A DNA stretch of 64,000 nucleotides from Phaeacidiphilus oryzae TH49 (GTDB lineage Bacteria; Actinomycetota; Actinomycetes; Streptomycetales; Streptomycetaceae): NCBI RefSeq assembly GCF_000744815.1, contig NZ_JQMQ01000005.1:876055-940054 (forward strand), in the 5' to 3' direction. How positions within the stretch are numbered: position 1 is the first letter of the stretch; the number at the start of each line of letters is the position of its first letter. Below, piece after piece: positions 5,394-39,054 of the stretch. The position numbers and the translations under genes are program-made. Under the pieces are notes generated by a model, which was not told where the DNA came from, made no database searches, and saw only the letters and a program-made list of their open reading frames with translations.

Positions 5394-5553
5394 CGAATCC
5401 TCCTCGCGCTCGATGCGCTGGATCCGGGGCTCACGGGAGCTGAGGCCGACGGCGACGGAATGCACGGGCCCGCACGAGACGACGATCCACCGCGTCCCGG
5501 GAAGACCGGGAAACAGCGCGCCGCGCGGAACCGCACGCCCGACGACGCCTGCC

Positions 5554-5685
5554 GCGCACTGCCTCCCATCCGGACTTTAACCGTCGGTCCAGGAATTCCA
5601 CCTGGTCAACCGGTCGCCTCCGAGAAGGCCACCGGGTCGCGGACTGTAACCGCCGGTTCGGACTTTCACCGACCCCGGAGTGCGC
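5554..5685 (-). promoter_or_regulatory. FMN riboswitch (RFN element)
   Basis: The minus strand carries the conserved RFN core. In order there is the P1 strand GCGCACT at 5685-5679, then GGGGTCGGTGAAAGTCCG, ACCGGCGGTTACAGTCCGCGA, GGTGGAATTCCTGGACCGACGG and TTAAAGTCCGGATGGGAG, closed by AGTGCGC at 5560-5554. P1 pairs perfectly. This element binds FMN and represses the downstream genes; here the next gene is ribD, 160 nt away. The intervening leader holds a small hairpin (TCCCGG at 5495-5500 with CCGGGA at 5506-5511) but no T-tract, so control by translation initiation or Rho-type termination is as likely as intrinsic attenuation. Confidence 0.97.
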
Positions 5686-5815
5686 AAACGTCGTTGTGCT
5701 GCTTCCAGTCTGCCATGATCCCCGCGCTCCTTGGGAGGGGGGTCCCTGTGGGCTGTCTCACGCATCGGCCCGGCGCGCCTGGGGAATACCAGGTCAGGCC
5801 CGGATCCGGCCGAGC

Positions 5816-28232: not shown

Positions 28233-29078
28233 TCAGGCGCCCGCGAGGGCCGCCCGGACCTCCGCGGCCTGCTGCTCCGCGGCCTCCCGCAGCGCCGCCA
28301 CGGCAGGCCCGCGGCTGAGCACCCCGCGGCTGACGCTCGGCACCACGAGCCGGGCCGCGGAACCGAACACCTTGGGGATGTCCCGCGCCGTCGCGCCCTG
28401 GGCGCCGATGCCGGGGGCGAGGAGCGGCCCGTTGATCGCGAGGTCGACCCCCGCGTCGCCGAGCGTCGCCCCGACCACCGCGCCGAACGAGCCCATCGGC
28501 TCGGCCCCGGCGTTCTCCGCGGCCAGCTCCCGGAGGATCTGCCCGGCCACCGTGGTCCGCCCGTCGGCGCCCACCGCCCGCTGCACCGAGGCGCCCTCCG
28601 GGTTGGAGGTGAGGGCCAGCACGAAGAGCCCCGAGCCGGCCGCCCGGGCCGCGTCCACGGCCGGCCTCAGCGAGCCGAAGCCGAGGTACGGGCTGACCGT
28701 GAGGGCGTCCGAGAAGAGCGGGGACGCCGGGTCCAGGAAGGCCTCGGCGTAGGCGGCCATGGTGGAGCCGATGTCGCCGCGCTTGGCGTCGGTGACCACC
28801 AGCGCCCCCGCCTCCCGGGCGGCCGCGATGGTCCGCTCCAGGACGGCCACCCCGCGGCTGCCGAACCGCTCGAAGAAGGCCGCCTGCGGCTTCAGCACCG
28901 CCACCCGGTCGGCCAGCGCCTCGACGCAGGTACGGGCGAAGGACTCCAGTCCGGAGACGTCGTCCGGCAGGCCCCAGGCGTCCAGCAGCGAGGCGTGCGG
29001 GTCGATCCCCACGCACAGCGGTCCGCGCTCCGCCATGGCCCGGCTGAGCCGCGCCCCGAACGGGTCCCGAGCGGTCAT
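28233..29078 (-). CDS. pyrF: Orotidine-5'-phosphate decarboxylase (type 2)
   Basis: Last step of UMP synthesis, decarboxylating OMP. At 281 residues it is the longer type 2 form typical of actinobacteria. Visible features are [20 protein letters not shown] at the N-terminus, the catalytic cluster [18 protein letters not shown] (about 93-110, with the Lys-Asp pair), [14 protein letters not shown] and the phosphate-binding [12 protein letters not shown] (about 220-231). The ATG at 29076-29078 overlaps the pyrD stop (ATGA). It is the final gene of the pyr operon, followed by a terminator. Confidence 0.96.
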
Positions 29079-30199
29079 GCGGTCTTCTCCTTGTCAGCGG
29101 CGGCGCCCACCGCTTCGGCGAGGTTGCGGTACCCGGAGGCGCGCAGCAGGGCGAGCAGCTCGCGGTGGACCCGGCGGGCCCAGAACGGCCCCTCGTAGAT
29201 GAACCCGGTGTAGCCCTGGACCAGGGTGGCCCCGGCCAGGATCCGCTGCCAGGCGTCCGCACCGGTCTCGATGCCGCCGACCGCGACCAGCACCAGGCGG
29301 TCCCCGGTCCGGGCCCGCAGCCGGCGCAGGACCTCCAGCGAGCGCTCCTTGACCGGCGCGCCGGAGAGGCCCCCGGCGCCGGCCGCCTCGACCGTCCGCC
29401 GCGGGGTGCGCAGCCCCTCGCGGCCGATGGTGGTGTTGGTCGCGATGATGCCGTCCAGGCCCAGTTCCAGGGCCAGGTCGGCGACCGCGTCCACGTCCTC
29501 GTCGGCCAGGTCGGGGGCGATCTTGACCAGCAGCGGGACGTGCTCGGCCGCGACCCTGTCGAGGGTCCCCCGGACCGCGCTGAGCAGCGGCCGCAGCTGG
29601 TCCACCGCCTGCAGGTCGCGGAGGCCCGGGGTGTTCGGCGAGGAGACGTTGACCACGAAGTAGTCGGCCTGCCGGGCCAGCCGCTCGGTCGAGGCGACGT
29701 AGTCGGCGACCGCCTCGGCCTCCGGGACCACCTTGGTCTTGCCGATGTTGACGCCGACCACGGTGTCGTCGTGCCGGCCGCGCTTGACGGCCAGCCGGCG
29801 GGCCAGCCGGTCCGCGACGGCGGCCGAGCCCTGGTTGTTGAAGCCCATCCGGTTGACCAGCGCGCGGTCCTCGACCAGCCGGAACATCCGCGGGGCCGGG
29901 TTGCCGGGCTGCGGTTCGGCGGTGACGGTGCCGATCTCGACGTAGTCGAAGCCCAGCATGGCCAGGCCGTCGATGCCGAAGGCGTTCTTGTCGAAGCCGG
30001 CGGCGAGGCCGAACGGGCCCGGCAGGTCCAGCCCCAGCGCGGTCATCCGCAGCTCGGGGAACTGCGGGGCGAGCACCCGGCGGATCGCGCCGCGCAGCCC
30101 GGGGATCCGGGCCGCGACCCGGATCCAGGTGAACGCCAGCTCATGCGCCCGCTCGGGGTCCATCCGACGGAAGAAGAGCCTGAAGAAGAGGTGGTACAA
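29075..30199 (-). CDS. pyrD: Dihydroorotate dehydrogenase (quinone), class 2
   Basis: Oxidises dihydroorotate to orotate and passes electrons to quinone; class 2 enzymes sit on the inner face of the cytoplasmic membrane through an amphipathic N-terminus, here [20 protein letters not shown]. The 374-residue product has the FMN-binding [20 protein letters not shown] segment (about 62-81), [28 protein letters not shown] (with the catalytic serine) and [11 protein letters not shown]. The start is a TTG at 30197-30199 with GAAGGG 9 nt upstream. It is separated from carB by 154 nt containing a repeat hairpin, so it may have its own promoter. Confidence 0.95.
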
Positions 30200-30353: not shown

Positions 30354-33666
<3,313 letters not shown>

Positions 33667-33674
<8 letters not shown>

Positions 33675-34815
33675 GCGGGGCCTCCACGTTGTTGTGCATG
33701 AGCTGGGTGAAGCGGTCGAACAGGTACGCGGCGTCGTGCGGTCCGGCCGCCGCCTCCGGGTGGTACTGGACGCTGAACGCCGGGGTGTCCAGCGCCTGCA
33801 GGCCCTCCACCACGTCGTCGTTCAGGCAGACGTGGGAGACCTCGACGCGGCCGAACTCGGTCTCGGAGACCTCGTCCAGCGGGGCGTCCACGGCGAAGCC
33901 GTGGTTGTGCGCGGTGACCTCCACCTTGCCGGTGGTGCGGTCCTGCACCGGCTGGTTGATCCCGCGGTGGCCGTACTTGAGCTTGAAGGTGCCGAAGCCG
34001 AGGGCCCGGCCGAACAGCTGGTTGCCGAAGCAGATGCCGAAGAACGGGGTCTTCCGGCGCAGCACCTCGCGCAGCACCTCGACCTGGGCGTCGGCGGTGG
34101 CCGGGTCGCCGGGGCCGTTGGAGAAGAAGACGCCGTCCGGTTCGACCGCGTAGATGTCCTCGGCGGTCGCGGTCGCCGGCAGCACGTGCACCTCGATGCC
34201 GCGCTCGGCCATCCGGTGCGGGGTCATCCCCTTGATGCCGAGGTCGACGGCGGCGACGGTGAACTTCTTCTCGCCGATCGCCGGGACCGTGTAGGCCTCG
34301 CCGGTGGCCACCTCTCCGGCCAGGTCCGCGCCGGCCATCTCCGGCGAGTTGCGGACCAGCTCGACCATGTCGCCCTCGAAGGGCAGCGCGTCGCCGGAGA
34401 AGATCCCGGCGCGCATCGCGCCGCTCTCCCGCAGGTGCCTGGTCAGCGCGCGGGTGTCGATCCCGCTGATGCCGACGATGCCCTGGCGCGCCAGCTCCTC
34501 GTCCAGCGAGCGCCGGGAGCGCCAGTTGGAGGGCACCCGGGCGGGGTCGCGGACCACGTACCCGGCCACCCAGATCTGCTTCGACCGGGACTCGCTGTCT
34601 TCGTCGTTCCAGCCGGTGTTGCCGATCTGCGGGGCGGTCATCACCACGATCTGGCGGCGGTACGACGGGTCGGTCAGCGTCTCCTGGTAGCCGGTCATGC
34701 CGGTGTTGAAGACGGCCTCGCCGAAGGTCTCGCCCACGGCGCCGTACGCCTGGCCCCGGAAGACGCGGCCGTCCTCCAGGACCAGGACAGCGGGGATCTT
34801 CGTTCGGGGGGTCAT
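33667..34815 (-). CDS. carA: Carbamoyl-phosphate synthase, small subunit
   Basis: Glutaminase subunit that delivers ammonia to CarB; 382 residues, ATG 34813-34815. The N-terminal small domain has [17 protein letters not shown] and [17 protein letters not shown]. The class I glutamine amidotransferase domain carries the nucleophile in [16 protein letters not shown] and the catalytic His-Glu in [13 protein letters not shown]. The start overlaps the stop of the membrane-protein gene (ATGA), and its 3' end overlaps carB. Within the operon it is downstream of pyrC, so a single carAB pair may serve both pyrimidine and arginine pathways. Confidence 0.97.
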
Positions 34816-35390
34816 TCTGCGCCTTCCTTCTCCACTGCGTGCGGTTCTTCCTTCTCGACCAGCCGGTTGATCGCCTCGACCCAGGCCGGGTGGACCGCCG
34901 ACTCGCGCGACCGGAAGCCCGAGTCGATCAGCTTCCCGCCGTGCTCCCAGGTGACCACCAGGAGGCCGCCCTCGGGCAGCACCTTCCCGGCGATCCCCTG
35001 GTCGGTACGGGCCCCGCGGAGGGCCGCCCGGGGGATGAAGAAGCCGGTCGCGGACGGGCGGACGACCCGCAGCCCGTCCTCGGTCAGGGTGAGCTCCGCG
35101 AGGGAGCGGGTGCCGAGGTCGCGGGCGACGATCCGGTCCAGCCACTCCCCCGCGCTGGTCGAGCCGTGGTAGCGGCCGAGCAGCTCCTCCAGGATGGGCT
35201 GCCCCTCCTCCTTCGGCAGCTCGACCAGCGGCGGCAGACCGGACTGCATGGTGGCCCGCCACTTCCAGCCCTGCCGCATCAGCCAGTACAGGAGCGCGAT
35301 GAAGAGCACCAGGCCGACCACCCAGCCGGTGAGGTCGCCCTTGTTCTCCATCGGCGCCGATCCGGCCAGCAGCACCAGCGGCCCGGTCAC
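34812..35390 (-). CDS. Uncharacterised PH-like membrane protein in the pyr operon
   Basis: A 192-residue protein with one transmembrane helix near the N-terminus (about 22-39, [17 protein letters not shown]), followed by RQGWKWR and a cytoplasmic domain of about 140 residues ending in a charged tail ([16 protein letters not shown]). Proteins of this type are annotated in actinobacteria as PH-like domain or export/transcriptional regulator family without a proven role. Its GTG (35388-35390) overlaps the pyrC stop and its TGA overlaps the carA start, so it is translationally coupled on both sides and should be made in step with the pathway enzymes. An alternative ATG at 35349-35351 would remove 13 residues. 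Function unknown. Confidence 0.75.
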
Positions 35391-36679
35391 CTCTCCACCA
35401 GCTCTCCGTCGAGGACGGTCGGCTCGCCGCGCAGGAAGGTGGCGACCACCCGCCCGGGCAGCTCCCGTCCGCGGTACGGGGTGTTGCGGCTGCGGGTGGC
35501 GAACCGCTCCGGCGCCACCTCGGCGTTCCACGCCGGGTCCAGCAGCACCAGGTGGGCCGGCTCGCCGACCTCGATCGGGCGCCCCTGGTCGGTCACCCGG
35601 CCGATCCGGGCCGGCCGGGCCGACATCCGGTCCGCGACCTGGGTCCAGTCCATCAGGCCGGTGTCCACCATGGCGTGCTGGACGACGGAGAGCGCGGTCT
35701 CCAGGCCGACCATCCCCATGGCGGCGGCGGCCCACTCGCAGTCCTTGTCCTCCGCCGGGTGCGGGGCGTGGTCGGTGGCGACGGCGTCGATGGTGCCGTC
35801 GGCCAGCGCCTCGCGCAGCGCGGTGACGTCGGCCGCGGTCCGCAGCGGCGGGTTGACCTTGTAGACCGGGTCGTAGGAGCGGACGAGCTCGTCGGTGAGC
35901 AGCAGGTGGTGCGGGGTGACCTCGGCGGTGACGTCCCAGCCCTTGGCCTTGGCCCAGCGGATGATCTCCACCGAGCCGGCCGTCGAGACGTGGCAGACGT
36001 GCAGCCGGGAGCCGACGTGGGCGGCCAGCAGCACGTCCCGGGCGATGATCGCCTCCTCGGCGACGGCCGGCCAGCCGCGCAGCCCGAGCTCCCCGGAGAC
36101 CTGGCCCTCGTTCATCTGGGCGCCCTCGGTCAGCCGCGGCTCCTGGGCGTGCTGGGCGACGACCCCGTCGAAGGCCTTCACGTACTCCAGCGCCCGGCGC
36201 ATGATCACCGCGTCGTCGACGCACTTGCCGTCGTCCGAGAAGACCCGGACCCCGGCCGCCGAGTCGGCCATCGCGCCCAGCTCGGCGAGCTGCTTGCCCT
36301 CCAGGCCGACGGTGACCGCGCCCACCGGGTGGACGTCGCAGTAGCCGGACTCCCGGCCCAGCCGCCAGACCTGCTCGACCACGCCGGCGGTGTCGGCCAC
36401 CGGGAAGGTGTTGGCCATCGCGTGGACGGCGGTGAAGCCGCCCTTGGCGGCGGCCCGGGTGCCGGTGAGGACGGTCTCGGCGTCCTCCCGGCCGGGCTCC
36501 CGCAGATGGGTGTGGAGGTCGACCAGGCCGGGGAGGGCGATCAGGCCGGCGGCGTCGATCTCCCGCTCGCCGTTCGCGGTCAGCCCGGCGCCGATCTCGG
36601 TGATCACGCCCTCGGCGATCCGCAGGTCGGCGGCCTCCCCGCCGAGGACCTTCGCGTTCTTGATCAGGTAGCCGCTCAC
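35387..36679 (-). CDS. pyrC: Dihydroorotase
   Basis: Zinc amidohydrolase that cyclises carbamoyl aspartate to dihydroorotate; 430 residues, class I type. Metal-binding HTHLREPG (about 58-65) lies in [14 protein letters not shown]. Further ligands are in [22 protein letters not shown] and the [11 protein letters not shown] loop (about 300-310). The [16 protein letters not shown] segment is typical of the PyrC/allantoinase group. The GTG start at 36677-36679 overlaps the pyrB stop (GTGA), continuing the chain of coupled genes. Confidence 0.96.
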
Positions 36680-37656
36680 TGGGCGTTCTCCTTGGTGGTG
36701 CTGGTGGCGGGGCTGGTGGCGGGTTCCGCTCCGCCGAGCAAGAGGTAGAGGACCGCCATCCGGACGCTGACCCCGTTGGCGACCTGCTCGACCGCGGTGC
36801 ACCGGGGGGAGTCGGCCACCTCGGCGGTGATCTCCATCCCGCGGACCATCGGGCCCGGGTGGAGGACCACGGCGTGCTCGGGCAGCGCCGCCATCCGCAG
36901 GCCGTCCAGGCCGTAGCGGCGGGAGTACTCGCGCTCGGTCGGGAAGAAGGCCGCGTTCATCCGCTCCCGCTGGACCCGGAGCATCATCACCGCGTCGGAC
37001 TTGGGCAGCACCGCGTCCAGGTCGTAGGAGACCGAGCAGGGCCAGTTCTCCACGCCGATCGGCAGCAGGGTCGGCGGGGAGACCAGGGTGACCTCGGCGC
37101 CGAGGGTGTGCAGCAGGTGGACGTTGGAGCGGGCCACCCGGCTGTGGAGGATGTCGCCGACCACGGCCACCCGGCGACCTGCCAGGTCGTTCCCGGCCCC
37201 GGCGTTGAGGTGGCGGCGCAGGGTGAAGGCGTCCAGCAGGGCCTGGGTGGGGTGCTCGTGGGTGCCGTCGCCGGCGTTGATCACGCTGCCGTGCAGCCAG
37301 TCGGACTCGGCCAGCCGCTGCGGGGCGCCGGAGGCGCTGTGCCGGATGACCACCGCGTCCGCGCCCATCGCCTGCAGGGTCAGCGCGGTGTCCTTGAGCG
37401 ACTCGCCCTTGGAGACCGAGGAGCCCTTGGCGGAGAAGTTGATCACGTCCGCGGAGAGCCGCTTCTCGGCGACCTCGAAGGAGGTCCTGGTGCGGGTGGA
37501 GTCCTCGAAGAAGAGGTTGACCACGGTGCGGCCGCGCAGCGTCGGCAGCTTCTTGATCGGCCGGTCCGAGAGCGCCGCCATCTCCTCGGCGGTGTCCAGG
37601 ATCAGCAGGGCGTCGTCGCGGCTGAGCTCCGCGGCCGAGACGAGGTTGCGGTTCAC
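36676..37656 (-). CDS. pyrB: Aspartate carbamoyltransferase, catalytic subunit
   Basis: Transfers the carbamoyl group from carbamoyl phosphate to aspartate. The 326-residue product has the carbamoyl-phosphate site [13 protein letters not shown] (about 49-61), [15 protein letters not shown] with the conserved lysine, [17 protein letters not shown] (about 126-142) and the aspartate-binding [13 protein letters not shown] (about 265-277). No pyrI regulatory-subunit gene is nearby; actinobacterial enzymes usually lack it and rely on operon control. GTG start 37654-37656 overlaps the pyrR stop. The last 15 residues are a low-complexity Thr/Ala/Pro tail. Confidence 0.97.
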
Positions 37657-38204
37657 TGCGGGCCTCCCAGGATGACGGCGTCCCGGCCGTCGGTCTCGGC
37701 CAGCTGCACCCGGACGGTCTCGCGCAGCGAGGTGGGCAGGTTCTTGCCCACGTAGTCGGCGCGGATGGGGAGTTCGCGGTGGCCGCGGTCGACGAGGACG
37801 GCGAGCTGCACCGCGCGCGGGCGGCCGATGTCGTTCAGGGCGTCCAGGGCGGCGCGGACGGTGCGCCCGGAGAAGAGGACGTCGTCGACGAGGACGACGA
37901 GCCTCCCGTCGATGCCGCCGGGCGGCATCTCGGTGTGCTCCAGGGCGCGGGCGGGCTTCATCCGCAGGTCGTCCCGGTACATGGTGATGTCGAGGGTGCC
38001 GAGCGGGATCTCGCGTCCGGTGATCTCGACGAGCTTGGCCCGCAGCCGGCGGGCGAGGTGCACCCCGCGGGTGTGGATGCCGAGCAGCACGACGTCCTCC
38101 GCGCCCTTGGCGCGCTCGACGATCTCGTGCGCGATACGGGTGAGGACCCGGGCGATGTCGCCCTCGTCCAGTACCCGCGTCTTCTCTGATGGTGAAGAAG
38201 TCAT
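37653..38204 (-). CDS. pyrR: PyrR bifunctional regulator / uracil phosphoribosyltransferase
   Basis: RNA-binding regulator of pyrimidine genes that senses UMP/UTP and has weak uracil phosphoribosyltransferase activity; 183 residues, first gene of the operon. The PRPP-binding motif is [20 protein letters not shown] (about 104-123), and [17 protein letters not shown] with the basic stretch [20 protein letters not shown] matches the RNA-binding face of the family. Start ATG 38202-38204 with a very strong AAGGAGGT. The hairpin just upstream matches the PyrR recognition loop, so it probably represses its own translation and that of the coupled downstream genes. Confidence 0.95.
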
Positions 38205-38544
38205 GCCGAAGCGGACCTCCTTCCCCGCCTCACGGGACGGGCCTTAAAGGATGTCTGGGACAGCGCCCGATCGGTCCGTCCGGCGATATCCGGACCGGCG
38301 GCCAGGCACTTTCGGCCAGCCTACCAGGGCGTTCCGCGGCCTTCCGAGCGCACCCCCGGGGCCTGGATCAGGGCTGCTCGCACGGCTGACCCATTCGGCT
38401 TGACGGAAGCTTATTACGCTGCGTAACCTCACAGTCAGTTACGGCCGGGTTCTGCCAAGCGGCCGTTCGGTAGCGGTGGGTCGGCCGCGGTCAACAGCCC
38501 GGCGCGCAGCGCCTGTTGAGAAGACATCTCGTCCGGGGAGACAA
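38205..38544. promoter_or_regulatory. Divergent regulatory region pyrR/bldD
   Basis: This 340-nt gap must hold both promoters. The pyrR side has the PyrR hairpin. The bldD side has a perfect 13-bp palindrome TTACGC-T-GCGTAA at 38414-38426, overlapping an imperfect dyad GTAAC-N10-GTTAC at 38422-38441. These are candidates for autoregulation, since Streptomyces bldD is known to repress itself. The region is visibly more AT-rich around 38400-38440 than its surroundings. GGGGAG lies 5 nt before the bldD ATG. Confidence 0.55.
38223..38242 (-). promoter_or_regulatory. Probable PyrR-binding hairpin at the pyrR ribosome-binding site
   Basis: On the minus strand CCCG-TCCCGTGAGG-CGGG (38241-38224) forms a small hairpin whose loop fits the PyrR recognition sequence UCCNGNGAGG at every position. 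It ends 3 nt before AAGGAGGT, the pyrR ribosome-binding site. This resembles the mycobacterial arrangement, where PyrR blocks translation initiation instead of driving transcription attenuation; no terminator/antiterminator pair is evident in the leader. Confidence 0.7.
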
Positions 38545-39054
38545 ATGTCCAGCGACTACGCGAAACAGCTCGGAGCCAAGCTGCGTGCCATCCGCACCCA
38601 GCAGGGGCTCTCCCTGCACGGCGTGGAGGAGAAGTCCCAAGGCCGCTGGAAGGCCGTGGTGGTCGGCTCTTACGAGCGCGGCGACCGTGCGGTGACCGTC
38701 CAGCGCCTCGCCGAGCTGGCGGAGTTCTACGGAGTGCCGGTGCAGGAGCTGCTTCCGGGCAGCACCCCCGGCGGCGCCGCGGAGCCCCCGCCCCGCCTGG
38801 TGCTGGACCTGGAGCGGCTCTCCCAGGTGCCGTCCGAGAAGGCGGGGCCGCTGCAGCGCTACGCGGCCACCATCCAGAGCCAGCGCGGCGACTACAACGG
38901 CAAGGTGCTCTCCATCCGCCAGGATGATCTGCGCACCCTGGCGGTCATCTACGACCAGTCGCCCTCCATCCTCACCGAGCAGCTGATCAGCTGGGGTGTC
39001 CTCAACCCGGACGCGCGGCGCGCGGTCCGCGAGGACGAGGCCGGCGGCGTCTGA
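38545..39054 (+). CDS. bldD: Developmental repressor BldD
   Basis: Master transcriptional regulator that holds sporulation genes off during vegetative growth and dimerises on binding tetrameric cyclic-di-GMP. The product is 169 residues from ATG 38545-38547. The XRE-type helix-turn-helix domain spans about 5-65 (YAKQLGAKLRAIRTQQGLSL, then VVGSYERGDRAVTVQRLAEL). The C-terminal domain (about 80-165) carries the RGD-x-D c-di-GMP signature as QSQRGDYNGKVLSIRQDDLR, where RGD and RQDD supply the ligand contacts. Its presence is strong evidence for a sporulating, Streptomyces-like organism. It is divergent from the pyr operon and transcribed alone. Confidence 0.97.
   Translation: MSSDYAKQLGAKLRAIRTQQGLSLHGVEEKSQGRWKAVVVGSYERGDRAVTVQRLAELAEFYGVPVQELLPGSTPGGAAEPPPRLVLDLERLSQVPSEKAGPLQRYAATIQSQRGDYNGKVLSIRQDDLRTLAVIYDQSPSILTEQLISWGVLNPDARRAVREDEAGGV

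Follow-up and report, generated by a model that had tools for sequence, protein, structure and literature searches.

The pyrR leader of Phaeacidiphilus oryzae TH49 very probably carries a translational repression switch, in which a PyrR-recognition hairpin encloses the ribosome-binding site of pyrR and its effect would be coupled down the pyrimidine operon. The leader lies on the minus strand of the window, by which we mean the whole 64,000-nt stretch of DNA analysed here, and the coordinates of the hairpin and of the operon genes below refer to that strand. Judged from its sequence, the element at 38214-38255, predicted as a whole from the RF00515 alignment, model R2, folding and covariation, is a genuine PyrR-type hairpin, with a hexaloop and closing pairs that match the PyrR site. 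The minus strand from 38257 to 38214 reads CAGACATCCTTTAAGGCCCGTCCCGTGAGGCGGGGAAGGAGGTC, and the pyrR ATG follows at 38204 after a gap of 9 nt from the last base of the hairpin. The hexaloop CCGUGA (CNGNGA; 38230-38235), placed by the RF00515 and R2 alignments and by the row alignment, is closed by a C-G and a U.G pair and sits on an upper stem of 6 bp in total, formed by the arms CCCGUC (38236-38241) and GGCGGG (38224-38229), which are defined by the row alignment, covariation and R2. On the 5' side follows the purine bulge AAGG (38242-38245; RF00515 and row alignments), the AA of which does not change among 131 distinct leaders. Beyond this bulge, RF00515, the aligned rows, the fold and R2 all pair UCCUUU (38246-38251), which is complementary to the ribosome-binding site, with GAAGGA (38218-38223), and the stem continues as GAC/GUC across a mismatch. 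The Shine-Dalgarno sequence of pyrR, AAGGAGGT (38215-38222), recognized from the sequence and from a survey of start positions, lies within this lower stem; the ribosome-binding site AAGGAGG is its 3' arm and UCCUU the partner.

The original prediction had noticed a PyrR loop motif in this leader, and the sequence was as it stated, with GCCCGTCCCGTGAGGCGGGG at 38242-38223 and TCCCGTGAGG within it at 38237-38228, both on the minus strand. Two details had to be revised: the gap between the motif and AAGGAGGT is 5 nt (CGGGG) rather than 3 nt, and the supposed 10-nt loop is really the hexaloop with its two closing pairs on the 6-bp stem. The claim that the recognition loop is fused to the pyrR ribosome-binding site stands, but the ribosome-binding site, which had been placed next to the upper hairpin, is in fact included in the lower stem. 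Taken alone, the loop motif TCCNGNGAGG proves nothing because its count is at chance level (7 matches in the window against 8.12 expected, with at least 7 in 66 of 100 shuffles), and we rejected it as stand-alone evidence. A second match, TCCTGGGAGG at 37663-37672 just ahead of the pyrB start, was likewise taken as chance; it is kept in 0 of 80 loci, of which 5 are in a different register, so that 75 are informative. The full element behaves differently. In a 461-bp stretch searched on both strands with all families, RF00515 aligned to it end to end at 34.3 bits (E 0.0046), pairing UCCUU with AAGGA. Model R2, trained on 94 leaders from families other than the Streptomycetaceae, gave the site 68.8 bits and an E value of 2.8e-20, the runner-up having 0.065, and over the 7.8-Mb genome it returned one good site (E 3.4e-18, next 0.2), in agreement with model R1; no further PyrR site exceeded background in the R1 and R2 scans of the genome. 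The idea that the loop is a chance match, which the count of the motif by itself would permit, is refuted for the full element by this score under a model devoid of Streptomycetaceae and by its conservation, and can be dismissed.

We then considered the leaders of the class Actinomycetes, in which PyrR was found in 192 of 197 genomes. The 210 class loci consist of leaders from 130 class genomes, taken in descending order of score from the 192 that had a PyrR match, and of 80 named contigs. The pattern CTTTAA-N-T[TC]CNGNGAG[AG]-N-AAGG fits 209 of these 210 leaders; the lone misfit (L124) carries an additional T and was left out of alignments A1 and A2, while a leader with a one-base deletion (L176) is kept in A1 and omitted from A2. 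The original prediction had staked itself in advance on the loop being conserved among related leaders and had proposed a search for compensatory changes there, and it came through both: of 100 leaders belonging to the other families within the class (L112-L211), 98 match TCCNGNGAG[A/G] and two carry TTC instead, and compensatory changes are present in the stem pairs of the hairpin. The 131 distinct rows could be aligned with small length differences only, almost all within the bulge. Across them, two-sided changes occur at 8 of 15 pairs, compared with 1-3 in slid registers, and none of 500 shuffles reached the real alignment on four of five measures, with 3 of 500 doing so on the fifth. The result is retained in the 94 rows without Streptomycetaceae (8 of 15 pairs; the real value reached by none of 500 shuffles on four measures and by 21 on the fifth). 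Two observations count against the lower stem. The four pairs that bury the core of the ribosome-binding site (CCUU/AAGG) show zero variation in the 94 rows and therefore provide no covariation evidence, and at the three outermost positions of the stem, pairing is lost in 20-35 of those rows. The case for the predicted lower stem is made by the invariance of its 5' arm, by the Rfam alignment and by two-sided changes at pairs 7-41, 5-43, 4-44 and 3-45.

The hairpin stands at the head of the operon, of which pyrR (37653-38204) is the first gene. This gene is intact and encodes a 183-residue bifunctional regulator and uracil phosphoribosyltransferase, which scores 292.5 bits against NCBIfam NF003547 (cut-off 230) and matches solved PyrR chains including 1w30, 5iao and the reconstructed ancestral 4p81. 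The segment LTRIAHEI is common to the window PyrR and 4p81, a 19-residue stretch is common to all three chains, and we take these two segments to include RNA-binding residues. Behind pyrR, family matches and gene coordinates place pyrB (aspartate carbamoyltransferase, 36676-37656) and pyrC (dihydroorotase, 35387-36679), each overlapping the preceding gene by 4 nt. Next comes an ORF that was assigned a bPH_11 domain and gave no NCBIfam match (34812-35390), with 4-nt overlaps on both sides, to pyrC and to carA (33667-34815); carB (30354-33674) overlaps carA by 8 nt and ends the overlapped chain. The start/stop overlaps that had been predicted through carB are thus confirmed from the gene coordinates. 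The chain runs from pyrR to carB, and pyrD (29075-30199), which begins 154 nt past carB without overlap, and pyrF (28233-29078), which overlaps pyrD by 4 nt, are outside it; both were likewise placed by family match and coordinates. Overall, the earlier reading of a putative PyrR switch at the ribosome-binding site of pyrR, in an operon overlapped as far as carB, is supported.

From these features we infer the following mechanism. The pyrR leader would fold into the PyrR-recognition hairpin with the Shine-Dalgarno sequence of pyrR as the 3' arm of the lower stem. When uridine nucleotides (UMP/UTP) are plentiful, PyrR would bind the hairpin with its hexaloop and bulge and keep the lower stem closed, and ribosomes would be unable to start pyrR. 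Translation of pyrB, pyrC, the bPH_11 ORF, carA and carB would fall too, because pyrB through carB follow by start/stop overlaps, and polarity would also reduce the mRNA to some extent. When the nucleotides are scarce, PyrR would depart and the marginal lower stem would open. Excess pyrimidine, then, probably shuts the operon off at translation. Predicted folding of 209 leaders, cut in a fixed frame, had the lower stem closed in a median of 78% of the ensemble, with a median predicted cost of 4.9 kcal/mol for opening the ribosome-binding site. Several results count against this picture. The window's own leader is weaker, with predicted energies implying that the lower stem is closed in approximately 31% of the ensemble; in a longer version of this leader, the ribosome-binding site is joined in the minimum-energy fold to the opening codons of pyrR (within 38195-38222) and not to UCCUU; the energy z-scores of 0.02 and -0.14 are unremarkable; and the RF00515 score of 34.3 bits falls short of the curated cut-off of 54. 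Thermodynamic z-scores were set aside as uninformative.

A leader hairpin of this kind could instead act as the anti-antiterminator ahead of an intrinsic terminator, as in Bacillus-type transcription attenuation. The element is the same as RF00515, and elsewhere in the phylum, outside the class, terminators do come after it. In comparison with the Bacillus pyr attenuators and RF00515, the window shares the hexaloop, the 5' purine bulge, the UCCUU/AAGGA lower stem and the end-to-end alignment, but it differs in having no terminator and in using the AAGGA arm as a working ribosome-binding site. No terminator-like site was detected in 38100-38560, behind the PyrR hairpin or elsewhere in that interval, which agrees with the absence of an attenuator noted in the original prediction, and merely 9 nt separate the last base of the hairpin from the start codon. 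The same geometry holds throughout the class: a start codon in the PyrR frame lies 5-17 nt past AAGG, right past the hairpin, in 201 of 201 class leaders with a settable frame (8 others, with PyrR homology too short to set one, were left out of this survey), so that a terminator would not fit in the gap between the two. Attenuation is, on these grounds, highly improbable in the window. The difference is also visible in the family scores, as the window lies below the RF00515 gathering score of 54 and the curated Rfam family reported none of the 20 class leaders tested (from L112-L211). Among 20 further loci, 19 of them from other classes, 3 reach the cut-off (L256, L263 and L266), and a terminator was detected in L256 and L263.

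Transcriptional control was considered next. The interval upstream of pyrR is shared with a divergent bldD gene (38545-39054), whose product has a BldD-like C-terminal domain, and contains the palindrome TTACGCTGCGTAA at 38414-38426. This palindrome fits a BldD consensus, and it is conceivable that WhiA or BldD, acting at the shared pyrR/bldD intergenic region, exerts the dominant control and leaves the PyrR site with little effect. In Streptomyces venezuelae, WhiA binds between pyrR and bldD in ChIP-seq and, as expression profiling suggests, seems to repress pyrR (PMC3781837). Against such dominance, a PyrR hairpin that covers the ribosome-binding site and hardly varies across the class would not persist without function, and the two layers are compatible with each other. 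Dominant transcriptional control is accordingly improbable for this operon, and by analogy with S. venezuelae, WhiA at the pyrR/bldD region is a possible second layer of control.

The same interval offers candidate promoter features. A -10-like T[A/G]NNNT hexamer that begins 25 nt ahead of UCCUUUAA, immediately upstream of the PyrR hairpin, is present in 63 of the 80 named relatives. The comparable hexamer of the window lies further upstream, at 38323-38318, leaving room for an extra hairpin at 38310-38262. The presumed pyrR leader thus probably includes, according to the predicted fold, a GC-rich extra hairpin (38262-38310) between the -10-like hexamer and the PyrR hairpin.

Among the alternatives to a block of initiation, the one that fares best accepts that PyrR binds the leader and holds that it works mainly through mRNA decay or Rho-dependent polarity. 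A pyrR message without translation would indeed be exposed to decay and to Rho, but the ribosome-binding site buried in the leaders of the class points to initiation as the primary step, and we regard this alternative as unlikely. The translational switch at the pyrR ribosome-binding site is the reading that we prefer.

Such a switch has a precedent in the phylum. PyrR-dependent translational repression of the pyr operon of Mycobacterium smegmatis was reported in 2007, as cited in PMC10672894. The predicted switch of the window is an instance of an ancient and largely known actinobacterial mechanism, to which this operon of the Streptomyces family adds a case. In the work attributed to Fields & Switzer (2007, J Bacteriol 189:6236), M. 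smegmatis PyrR reportedly represses translation of the pyr operon, and that system resembles the window in having a PyrR hairpin over the first ribosome-binding site, no attenuator and pyrR as the first gene. The sequence features expected of a Mycobacterium-type system were found here, namely a leader hairpin, a first ribosome-binding site included in that hairpin, the lack of a terminator or antiterminator, and a PyrR gene in the genome. The two cases differ in that the window is known from sequence alone, that its leader probably has the extra upstream hairpin, and that its ribosome-binding site has an alternative pairing partner in the first codons of pyrR. A limited literature search found no paper on PyrR control in Streptomyces or Streptomycetaceae. 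The present analysis would place the pyrimidine operon of the Streptomycetaceae under one translational switch that is shared across the class and built on a defined RNA element.

Given that terminators follow the hairpin outside the class, we compared the leaders of other classes. With R1, the hairpin was detected in 244 of the 396 genomes that represent the phylum. We took 80 regions, which were chosen among the better-scoring listed places to spread over families and are not a random sample, and analysed 78 of them from 27 families; one failed the pattern (L292) and another belongs to the class of the window (L269). The next gene can start directly from the hairpin in 27 of the 78 (24 pyrR and 3 carA) and cannot in 51. 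The three leaders with a carA-frame ORF, not pyrR, behind the hairpin (L264, L313 and L315) all belong to family f72. In 45 of the 51 non-direct leaders, a start codon is nevertheless present 3-17 nt past AAGG, and in 32 of these 45 the short ORF that it opens runs up to a possible pyrR start and overlaps it by 4 nt or 1 nt. When the same leaders were read in the two other frames, such an overlap occurred in 1 and 4 of 45. Any in-frame start was allowed as the pyrR start, in the true and the control frames alike, and therefore the comparison between frames is fair and 32 of 45 is an upper estimate. These 32 leader ORFs, of 13-34 codons, come from 12 families (for example L262, L266, L288 and L303 among L250-L329).

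Terminators follow the same division. An intrinsic terminator within 140 nt was found in 17 of the 51 non-direct leaders, compared with a mean of 1.1 and a maximum of 4 in shuffles, and in 0 of 28 direct-start leaders, one of which (L269) is from the class of the window. Of the 17 terminators, 16 lie inside an ORF begun after the hairpin. An antiterminator pairing between the 3' arm of the hairpin and the terminator surpassed shuffles (p<0.05) in 2 of 17 leaders only, and is not generally supported.

It is an even proposition, in our estimate, that one PyrR hairpin, with its AAGGAG 3' arm serving as a ribosome-binding site, came to be connected in two ways in this phylum: directly to pyrR in Actinomycetes, and to a leader ORF of 13-34 codons in many other classes, where translational repression would drive attenuation. 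In those classes, PyrR would stop translation of the leader ORF, with the result that pyrR would be uncoupled and the terminator released. Under this scheme, the leader ORF and terminator would either have disappeared in the Actinomycetes or have been acquired by the other classes. For the pyr leader of Thermus, Van de Casteele et al. are said to have proposed in 1997 that a translating ribosome prevents termination, and the arrangement with a leader ORF in the other classes may be seen as resembling that proposal. The window shares with Thermus a PyrR hairpin ahead of pyrR, but it has neither a leader ORF spanning a terminator nor the terminator itself, its pyrR starting 14 nt past AAGG, whereas many other-class leaders of its phylum have both. 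No account of a PyrR leader ORF in this phylum was found in the limited literature search. The comparison between classes offers a testable path along which a single RNA-protein switch could move between attenuation and translational control. Elsewhere in the window, the minus strand also carries an FMN riboswitch at 5552-5687, with a score of 95.2 bits.
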